Source of the DNA: Bacteroidales bacterium | GTDB lineage: Bacteria > Bacteroidota > Bacteroidia > Bacteroidales > UBA932 | NCBI GenBank assembly: GCA_016290835.1 | Contig: JAEEVG010000024.1 | Coordinates: 1 to 34,674 of the forward strand | Direction: 5' to 3' | DNA: 34,674 bases | Shown: piece after piece, positions 22,527-24,307 of the stretch | Layout: every line of letters starts with the position of its first letter | How positions within the stretch are numbered: position 1 is the first letter of the stretch | Notes under the pieces: generated by a model | What the model saw: only the letters and a program-made list of their open reading frames with translations | Told to the model about the DNA's origin: nothing | The model's database searches: none | Program-made: the position numbers and the translations under genes

Positions 22527-22970
22527 ATGACAGCACACTATACCAGCAAGCACGGCCAGGTCGCCCGGCGGCCCGAGGAGCTTTATATGACTTTCACCGA
22601 TTTGCGCAATTTTGCGCAGATGGTGCCCCAGGGCCGGGTCCAGGCCGATATCCAGGCGGATTTCGATACGCTTTCGGTGACGGTCCAGGGTTTCAAGATC
22701 GGGGTGCGCGTGGATGACCGGGAGCCTTACCGGCTCATCCGGCTGGGGAGCAGCGAGTCGCCCGTGGAGTTCGTGGGGGTGTTGCATTTCGAGCCGTCGC
22801 CGATTCCCGGGCGGACGGATTTCTGGATCGACCTGGACGCGAATCTCAATTTTATGATGAAGACGATGTTGGGCGGGCGGCTGCAGGATGCGCTGGATCA
22901 GATGGTGGACAGTCTGGTGGATGTGTCCGAAGGGCGGATTCCGCCGATGGCGCAGGATTTCCGGGGGTGA
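22527..22970 (+). CDS. SRPBCC-like (START-superfamily fold) protein of unknown function
   Basis: This is a 147-residue cytosolic protein without signal or membrane segment. The opening resembles a small SRPBCC/polyketide-cyclase-type domain: a first strand (HYTSKHGQVARRPEEL), a helix (LYMTFTDLRNFAQMVP), alternating strands (DTLSVTVQGFKIGVRV, DFWIDLDANLNFM) and a long C-terminal helix (GRLQDALDQMVDSLVDV). This family binds hydrophobic ligands in a central cavity, but no ligand or reaction can be assigned. Its stop codon overlaps the start of the methyltransferase gene (TGATG), so the two are almost certainly cotranscribed. Codons here end in G more often than in most of the window. Confidence 0.72.
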   Translation: MTAHYTSKHGQVARRPEELYMTFTDLRNFAQMVPQGRVQADIQADFDTLSVTVQGFKIGVRVDDREPYRLIRLGSSESPVEFVGVLHFEPSPIPGRTDFWIDLDANLNFMMKTMLGGRLQDALDQMVDSLVDVSEGRIPPMAQDFRG

Positions 22971-24307
22971 TGGAGGAGGCGTCCGTTTCGGTTCGGCTCA
23001 ATCCTTTTAAGGGTGCTGCGGGTCCTGCGGGGGCCGCGGTGCCGTGGTCGCCGTATGGGCGCATCCTGCCCGAGCGCCCCGTCTTTACCCTCGATCCTCT
23101 TTGGCACGCGGGGTGCTATTATGTGCAAGATAGTTCCGCGATGTTTGTAGGACACGTCTTTCGTTCCCTTCTGGAGCGCGGCAAGGGCTCTCCCCCGAAA
23201 AACTTCGCGCTTCCTCCCGAGGCACCGACTCCAATCTGCGAATGCGCCGAAGCGGCGACGGCAGTAGCCTCTGAAAACCGTAGCCACCCTCGGCTTCGTA
23301 AGAGGGAGGGGCCCGCAGCCGAAGGCTGTGGGAGGGGTCCGACGCAGTCGGACGTTTTCAGAGGCTGGCTGCCGCAGAGCGAAGGGCAATCGGTGATTCG
23401 GGTTTTGGATTTGTGCGCGAGTCCGGGCGGGAAGACGACGGATCTGGCGGCGTCGCTGCGGGAACTGTACGGAGACGCTTTCGTGCTGGTAGCGAATGAA
23501 GTAATGAAGGCACGCGTAGGAGTGCTGGATGATAATGTGGCACGCTGGGGAGACCCGAATGTCGTGGTGACGAGCGTCGACCCGGGAGCCTTCGCCTCGC
23601 TCGCGGGCTGGTTCGACATCATCGTCGCCGACGTCCCCTGCAGCGGCGAAGGCATGTTCCGCAAAGACCCCCGCGCCCGGCAGGAATGGAGCCCCGCGGT
23701 GGTGGAGCTCTGCGCCGCCCGCCAGCGCCGCATCCTCGCGGACGTCTGGCCCGCCCTGCGCGAAGGCGGCTGGCTGCTCTACAGCACCTGCACCTACGAG
23801 GCCGCCGAGAACGACGACAACCTCGCCTGGGCCGCCGAAACCCTCGGCGGCGAAATCCTCCCGCCGGAAGCCGAGTTCGAGGAGATGGGCGTACGCCTCA
23901 CCCCCCACGGCCACCTGCTCGAAGCCGGCGTGGTCCCGGGCGAAGGACAGTGGGCCGGGGCGCTGCAGAAGACGGCCCCGCAGCGGGTGTCCCCCCGCGC
24001 GGACCTCGCCGCCCTGCACCCCGTCCGCAGCGGCCTGCGCAAAGGCGGGCAGCTGGGAAAAGAGTTCCTGCCCGACCCCGACTACGCTTTGAGCATAAAA
24101 TTTGATAGAGAGGACTATCCGTGTGCGGACGTGGACCTGCCCACGGCCCTGCGCTACCTCCACCGGGATGCGCTCGTCCTGCCCCAGGCCGCACCCGGCT
24201 ACAATGTGATCACCTACCTCGGCCACCCGCTGGGATTCGTCAAGAACATCGGTTCGCGATGCAACAACCTCCTCCCCAAGGGCCGCCGGATTTTGATGAA
24301 CGTATGA
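22970..24307 (+). CDS. RsmF/NSUN-type RNA (cytosine-C5) methyltransferase with an unusual insert
   Basis: This is a 445-residue SAM-dependent RNA methyltransferase of the RsmB/RsmF (NOL1/NSUN) group, which makes m5C in rRNA or tRNA. The N-terminal segment WHAGCYYVQDSSAMFVGHV is typical. The SAM motif LDLCASPGGKTTD, the loop DVPCSGEGMF (Cys224) and YSTCTYEAAENDDN (Cys274) supply the two catalytic cysteines. The C-terminal half contains an RsmF-like RNA-binding part ending in GFVKNIGSRCNNLLPKGRR. Between about residues 66 and 141, where relatives have a short linker, there is a Pro/Gly/Arg-rich insert of about 75 residues. It is encoded by a DNA element with nested inverted repeats (see 23266-23374). 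The ATG at 22970 is preferred over GTG 22967. The stop overlaps the next start (ATGA). Whether the enzyme still works with the insert is unknown. Confidence 0.87.
   Translation: MEEASVSVRLNPFKGAAGPAGAAVPWSPYGRILPERPVFTLDPLWHAGCYYVQDSSAMFVGHVFRSLLERGKGSPPKNFALPPEAPTPICECAEAATAVASENRSHPRLRKREGPAAEGCGRGPTQSDVFRGWLPQSEGQSVIRVLDLCASPGGKTTDLAASLRELYGDAFVLVANEVMKARVGVLDDNVARWGDPNVVVTSVDPGAFASLAGWFDIIVADVPCSGEGMFRKDPRARQEWSPAVVELCAARQRRILADVWPALREGGWLLYSTCTYEAAENDDNLAWAAETLGGEILPPEAEFEEMGVRLTPHGHLLEAGVVPGEGQWAGALQKTAPQRVSPRADLAALHPVRSGLRKGGQLGKEFLPDPDYALSIKFDREDYPCADVDLPTALRYLHRDALVLPQAAPGYNVITYLGHPLGFVKNIGSRCNNLLPKGRRILMNV
23266..23374. repeat. Nested inverted-repeat element inside the methyltransferase gene
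   Basis: The outer arms AGCCTCTGAAAAC (23266-23278) and GTTTTCAGAGGCT (23354-23366) are perfect 13-bp inverted copies. After a small bulge they extend with CGGCAG (23259-23264) and CTGCCG (23369-23374). Inside lie CCCTC/GAGGG (23287-23291/23302-23306), CCCGCAGCC-GAA-GGCTGTGGG (23312-23332, one G-T pair) and GTCCGAC-GCA-GTCGGAC (23337-23353). The layout suggests a small non-autonomous or REP-like element read through in frame. The inserted DNA may begin earlier, near 23175. Confidence 0.65.

Follow-up and report, generated by a model that had tools for sequence, protein, structure and literature searches.

Insertion of an extra segment in the linker of an rsmF-type gene

What is the segment that lies in frame in an rsmF-type RNA methyltransferase gene of a Bacteroidales bacterium, and how could it have arrived there? 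The window, that is, the whole stretch of DNA analyzed, is 34,674 nucleotides long, and its features are collected in Table 1. The product of the gene matches the RsmF N-terminal, RsmB/F methyltransferase and PUA domains in Pfam, and the NCBIfam RsmF models match it below their cut-offs. This is the only RsmF gene match in the source genome; the two other matches of that search are copies of the element described below. As the first-pass annotation stated, the insert leaves the reading frame open, the protein being continuous over its 446 amino acids with all three Pfam domains present. The distance between the sequences encoding YYVQDSSAM and VLDLCAxPGGK is 318 nt in the window and 108–126 nt in six empty relatives, which agrees with the short linker that had been assumed for relatives. 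Comparison of RsmF proteins across the segment indicates that the insert is not conserved: among the 23 genus members whose N-terminal segment was compared, 21 have the short linker and only the source genome and G008 have a long one. The insertion had been placed within an essential-looking domain; it lies instead in the linker preceding the SAM-binding motif, not inside the catalytic domain.

Table 1. Features of the rsmF-type gene and its insert (positions in the window).
Feature	Position	Strand	Remarks
rsmF-type RNA methyltransferase gene with insert	22967..24307	+	446 aa, open throughout
Entire segment in excess of the short linker seen in empty relatives	23176..23396	+	ends approximate; from linker lengths
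Probable relic of an earlier type B copy of this family, in reverse orientation	23192..23208	-	weak call
Clover-leaf element, type A copy	23258..23375	+	span of covariance model R1, 122 bits; score not independent, the window copy being among the building sequences of R1
Closing stem P1, 5' strand	23259..23278	+	7 outer and 13 inner pairs
Closing stem P1, 3' strand	23354..23374	+	1-nt bulge at 23367
Pseudoknot helix, 5' strand	23279..23285	+	CGTAGCC
Pseudoknot helix, 3' strand, within the P2 loop	23292..23298	+	GGCTTCG
Hairpin P2, crossed by the pseudoknot	23287..23306	+	CCCTC/GAGGG
Hairpin P3	23312..23332	+	23312–23320 with 23324–23332
Hairpin P4	23337..23353	+	23337–23343 with 23347–23353

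Upstream of the element, 15 of 17 bases of the putative remnant are identical to and collinear with genome G074 (E 0.02, a short match), whose RsmF gene has a type B copy and a type A copy side by side. These 17 bases may be what remains of an older type B copy, a tentative assignment.

Fold and covariation of the element

Each copy folds as a clover-leaf, in which a long stem closes off an H-type pseudoknot and two hairpins. The perfect 13-bp inverted repeat reported in the first-pass annotation is real: positions 23266–23278 (AGCCTCTGAAAAC) pair with 23354–23366, with 75 nt between the arms, and the longest perfect repeat in 60 Markov sequences of the RsmF linker is 10 bp. Beyond this repeat P1 continues past the bulge at 23367 with seven further pairs, 23259–23265 with 23368–23374. 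The three inner hairpins, two of them strong, were likewise recovered, P3 and P4 being strong and P2 weaker. In the minimum-energy fold of the window copy P2 is in a shifted register (23287–23291 with 23306–23310); comparison of 65 copies places it at 23287–23291 with 23302–23306, and the fold of the reverse strand agrees.

A structured element had been proposed for 23175–23390, of which the structure stands and the extent does not. The 118-nt unit 23258–23375 has a folding energy of −74.4 kcal/mol (z −7.0; 0 of 200 shuffles as good), and its reverse complement folds about equally well (z −7.0). The interval 23175–23390, in which the added sequence is mostly weaker, reaches a z of only −2.5 (3 of 200 shuffles as good), and the structured unit is therefore 23258–23375.

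In alignment A3, which comprises 65 copies, standard pairs occupy 87.6% of cells versus 68.3% after shuffling, double-changed cells number 473 versus 142 shuffled and 39–117 with the partners slid by 1–3 columns, and the covariation score is 0.42 versus 0.13 shuffled; A3 was fitted to the nested structure of R1, which favors that structure in the pair counts. By helix, the paired cells amount to 92.8% for P1, 85.7% for the pseudoknot, 98.5% for P2, 84.6% for P3 and 77.6% for P4, in which the alignment of types A, B and C is imperfect. Changes on both sides occur somewhere in all 14 of the counted P1 pairs. The pseudoknot is absent from R1 and covaries (GC 58/AU 6 with no unpaired cell at one pair, GC 24/AU 17 with 8 unpaired cells at another); one pair in the middle usually fails to form (52 of 64 cells). 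Taken by itself, the helix of the pseudoknot could also be a simple hairpin, so arm repair may conceivably have contributed to its covariation. In P1, G-T pairs outnumber A-C pairs by 29 to 11 (59 of the 65 copies; p 0.006, an optimistic value because the copies are related). Both the conserved pseudoknot and this surplus of G-T pairs suggest recognition of a single folded strand, either RNA or single-stranded DNA.

Copy number and distribution

Searched against the source genome at E up to 10, the segment recovers the window and 38 matches; the seven that rank next are 74–91% identical. Twenty-two stretches were read in register; nearly all have the same clover-leaf with differing closing arms, and locus L028 is truncated. 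Alignment A2 contains 20 of the 22, leaving out L016 (interrupted) and L028, and R1 was built from these 20. The first-pass annotation had called for a search for further copies: R1 has 23 matches at E up to 1 in the source genome, 21 of them below 1e-9, and it finds matches in 21 of the 24 other genomes of the genus, 15 of the 24 with 10–40 copies. At the family level it matches 60 of 119 genomes and 9 of 20 genera, and it matches none of 16 genomes each taken from another family of the order. A pattern of the core searched over 84,980 species is present in at least 120 stretches; among the matches listed, 119 are labeled as Bacteroidales-type organisms, including Candidatus Cryptobacteroides and Coprenecus, and one as Streptomyces. 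The Streptomyces stretch (L246) has no R1 match, R1 having been run on 100 of the at least 120 pattern loci.

No element source among the 13 searched has an Rfam match at the gathering score. By E-value, the best match of the window is GA-cis at 13.4 bits versus a cut-off of 34.7, and among seven other loci the long hairpin of L312 matches MIR1223 at a score under the cut-off and Actino-ugpB appears at E 0.9, none of these being credible. A TPP riboswitch is found in L103:1120–1216 of genome G019 (68.4 bits, above the cut-off), where it adjoins an element copy with no overlap. At E up to 1e-5, plasmid and phage collections contain nothing that matches the element.

Closing arms and the search for a mobilizing enzyme

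The core is conserved; the closing arms vary between copies yet pair within each copy. The outer 5' flank has its own 3' flank as its single best partner in 47 of 65 copies, and the mean outer-arm score is 14.1 for matching pairs versus 6.5 for mismatched ones. Ten copies were read in genome G451, and four of them (L309–L312) have cores 91–94% identical to that of L310. These four share about 10 stem pairs, after which each has unique arms; 33/34, 31/32, 31/31 and 36/36 bases of their stems are matched. The remaining G451 copies share part of their arms, the flanks in G500 are partly shared, and most of the G081 copies that belong to one type have long flanks in common, seemingly as part of a larger repeat. 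The G081 loci L278–L287 are near-identical larger repeats with GTGCCGTTCTTGT/ACAAGAACGGCAC-type flanks around the clover-leaf, some of them at contig ends, and locus L018 of the source genome is related to them.

A conventional MITE or REP-type unit that a transposase such as a divergent Y1/HUH enzyme mobilizes in trans, and whose ends have been blurred by mutation, would also be short, non-autonomous and present in many copies. The usual substrate of Y1 enzymes is hairpin DNA. Eleven of 16 genus genomes searched have Y1_Tnp matches, 2–6 each and some below the curated cut-off, and divergent Y1/HUH-type frames of about 290–370 codons are found in these 11 (loci L338–L345, L348 and L349). Against a transposase stand the ends, which vary even where the cores are 91–94% identical, and the surroundings of the enzymes: R1 finds no copy at 11 loci around Y1 and reverse transcriptase genes. 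Among the Y1_Tnp and RVT_1 genes no autonomous partner with the same ends was found. Neither Y1_Tnp nor RVT_1 shows a relation to copy number, by eye, across the 16 genus genomes. With some of the searched genomes incomplete, there is no Y1_Tnp match in G014 (15 copies), G013 or G001 (11 copies each) and no RVT_1 match in G004 (36 copies). Movement by such a transposase is a possible but doubtful alternative.

Filled, empty and flipped sites

In the RsmF linker of 20 close genomes R1 finds 10 copies in 9 genomes, in agreement with what direct reading of these loci had shown. The copies are in sense orientation in the source genome, G274, G323 and G081 and in antisense orientation in G266, G008, G299 and G113; G074 has one of each. 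Six genomes (G193, G135, G124, G338, G317 and G015) have a bare linker. A third repeat family occupies the linker in G166, G216 and G096 and a second family that in G380, and the RsmF genes of G008 and G299 carry the second family as well. The presence of several repeat families and orientations indicates that the same linker has been hit repeatedly. The second dispersed family reads LERSEVRISGPAGPGTLAETKSERGLRPQG in the RsmF gene of G008 (loci L270–L273; G008 C42:125975–126099 and others) and has ten matches in G008, nine in G299, two in the source genome and one in G380. The third (L274–L277) has eight matches in G096 and three each in the source genome and G216. One of its positions in the source genome, C30:15132–15191, is the TrmB linker position where G008 and G015 carry the clover-leaf.

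Opposite orientations at one site are also seen in RlmI (source genome and G008), in RNase R (source genome and G015) and in a FAD protein, where G015 differs from the source genome and G008. The two orientations could have arisen by inversion at the site or by several insertions into a loop that tolerates them. Assembly chimeras were rejected as a general explanation, since different genomes show the filled and empty states at one linker.

Comparison of filled and empty alleles suggests that one arm is native and the other an inverted copy of it. The DNA identity between filled and empty RsmF relatives is only about 80% (among the matches listed), so which arm is native was mostly judged by eye. 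The best case is TrmB, in which the G008 far arm, over 11 bases, exactly inverts the near flank of the empty G015 allele; the far arm of the source genome is missing from G015 and part of its near arm is present there. For RlmI and the FAD protein the inverted target copies were judged by reading the flanks. PmbA gives a similar impression by eye but says little, as no 9-base word is common to either arm and the empty alleles. Inverted copies of the RsmF flank measure 21 bp in G221 (4-nt loop), 17 bp in G008 and 14 bp in both G216 and G096. No direct target-site duplication was seen by eye, and inverted copies were seen instead, in flanks whose divergence makes this tentative. At a spot upstream of uvrB in the genus of G451, differing repeats have diverged too far to tell the native arm.

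Two sites are described here in their own right. In the RsmF gene of G221 (L255), there is a 21-bp perfect inverted copy of the native left coding flank with a 4-nt loop, with no mobile core and with the frame open; an inverted duplication without the element may reflect a separate local process. The intergenic spot before uvrB (L319–L334) holds different palindromic repeats by species in the genus of G451, and in G440 the two genes are directly adjacent with no repeat before uvrB.

If the arms were not target copies, the element could insert into pre-existing palindromes, for example at the tips of hairpins, and this would agree with the arms being already paired in copies that look recent. 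We regard it as unlikely: no perfect inverted repeat reaches 12 bp in any of the six empty RsmF linkers, and the empty TrmB allele of G015 is, by eye, without the far arm.

Reading frame and host genes

With both flanks scored for codon usage, 26 of the 65 copies lie in phase within a continuous open frame inside a gene, in sense or antisense, and these 26 loci support the proposal of a repeat family that is tolerated in coding regions. Five copies have flanks on one strand but out of phase and three are in phase with stops; the rest comprise 16 with one coding side, 12 without a clear coding flank, 2 with flanks on opposite strands and one (L077) with a flank too short. The in-phase share is 26 of 31 (p about 1e-8 versus a chance of one third), or 29 of 34 when the three with stops are counted. 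Across the open loci the element is read in more than one frame and on both strands, and it is apparently translated straight through as extra protein, to judge from the open frames.

Ten hosts were named in the source genome with Pfam and NCBIfam, several of the NCBIfam matches being below cut-off: RNase R, an RlmI-like methyltransferase, TldD, PmbA, an HI0933-like FAD protein, a FAD-dependent protein, DnaX, UvrD/PcrA, TrmB and a TPR protein. The RNase R insert falls within the span of the RNB domain. The TrmB copy of the source genome is scored as coding on one side only, as is its counterpart in G008 (L068, 1837–1951); a second G008 copy further along the same gene (L068, 1258–1372) is in phase and open. 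Hosts at other loci, which we take from their motifs to be YgiQ, MtaB, RecG, PolI and ComEA, add to these. In the copy at L016:1079–1229, in the HI0933-like gene, a short palindromic insert in turn interrupts the region of P2, and the frame is still open. At L078 (G015 C84:430–547) a presumed QueH-like protein, the element and a presumed XerC-like integrase follow one another in one frame, a fusion that may be due to recombination between copies or to an assembly join.

Duplication of a structured RNA with a function in the host (a cis-regulator, a ribozyme or a terminator) would produce covariation through selection on that function, and the covariation is strong and includes the pseudoknot. 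The 12 copies without a clear coding flank, and several G451 flanks that read as gene ends, would also suit such an RNA. The copies occur in both orientations relative to the genes, their host genes are unrelated and related species differ in having them, and Rfam gives no match at the gathering score and none credible by E-value, all of which makes a host RNA improbable. That the element is cut from the message or bypassed by the ribosome, as a small intron or bypass would be, leaving a protein without the insert, is very improbable: the compact self-closing fold within conserved genes speaks for it, yet a removed element would require no open frame and no length in multiples of three, and 26 copies are open and in phase versus 5 out of phase and 3 with stops.

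Proposed origin of the element

The family is probably a short non-autonomous mobile element of about 120–160 nt with no gene of its own, a conserved core and variable closing arms. The core consists of the pseudoknot, P2, P3 and P4. The element is dispersed in many copies, is present or absent at orthologous sites and, where both flanks code on one strand, lies mostly in phase and open, in either orientation. This agrees with the initial reading of the insert as a small non-autonomous mobile element that stayed open, copies elsewhere and empty sites having been found. The cell would translate the insert as a surface loop, and insertions that disrupt the reading frame or a fold essential to the protein would be lost to selection. 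A copy may come to lie at the tip of an inverted target duplication (target arm, element, inverted copy of the arm), as would be expected if insertion, or later repair of the hairpin, proceeds through fold-back template switching that produces inverted arm copies. The same template switching could maintain pairing between the arms and invert the core where it stands, giving both orientations at one site. It would explain the paired variable arms, the inverted target copies and the flips; it would not, by itself, explain how the core travels.

In yeast coding genes, template switching between the arms of inverted repeats is described as homogenizing the arms and inverting the spacers (PMC8604942), and in work on RNA hairpins it is proposed to make and keep them (PMC8794818). 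The arm homogenization and spacer inversion described for yeast are those proposed here; the yeast spacers given are 2–5 bp (PMC8604942), whereas here the spacer would be the mobile core of about 75 nt. More speculatively, the element could represent a new mode of mobility, in which fold-back template switching copies a folded RNA or single-stranded DNA with a pseudoknot core into a replication fork, with inverted target duplication, in-place flips and ready-made protein loops as results and with at least two further repeat families using the same linkers; we raise this with little confidence.

Relation to known repeats

The nearest known kind is the Rickettsia palindromic element (RPE), matched by description and not by sequence. 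As summarized in a 2024 review, RPEs are about 150 bp long, occur in many unrelated genes, often in frame, and each encodes a conserved peptide (PMC10969869). The clover-leaf is likewise a palindromic unit of similar size (118 nt plus outer arms) that lies in frame and open in unrelated protein genes. It differs in having no single conserved peptide, with several frames and both strands used, and in its Bacteroidales host, both orientations open, pseudoknot core and variable inverted target-like arms. ERIC-type and other small enterobacterial mobile repeats are described as multicopy units of 103–168 bp, some intragenic and open (PMC2759123, PMC2229807); on these descriptions they resemble the clover-leaf in unit size, copy number and occasional open position within genes, and they differ in host.

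The label REP-like, first given to the insert, fits poorly. REP units are described as extragenic and 20–40 bp long (PMC3733652), and the likeness to REP/RAYT systems lies in palindromic repeats in both; here the unit is far longer, at about 118 nt, its ends are variable, at least 26 of 65 copies are intragenic and 0 of the 11 Y1/RT loci have a copy. MITEs share conserved terminal inverted repeats, in contrast to the variable ends and conserved core here, with the G081 and G500 sets sharing longer flanks. A paper on MITEs in Porphyromonas gingivalis is on record (PMC4596501). Among the best-ranked results of a literature search that covered few subscription journals, no such in-frame element is reported for Bacteroidales. 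The 2024 review singles out Rickettsia for unusually frequent in-frame palindromic insertions and treats their occurrence elsewhere as conceivable (PMC10969869).

The inserted segments are repeats and not protein domains, which is relevant for annotation, and the hosts of the clover-leaf include enzymes of tRNA, rRNA and DNA metabolism. With hundreds of related genomes, the origin of the arms, the frequency of core flips and the tolerance of protein loops to insertion are all testable in this family.
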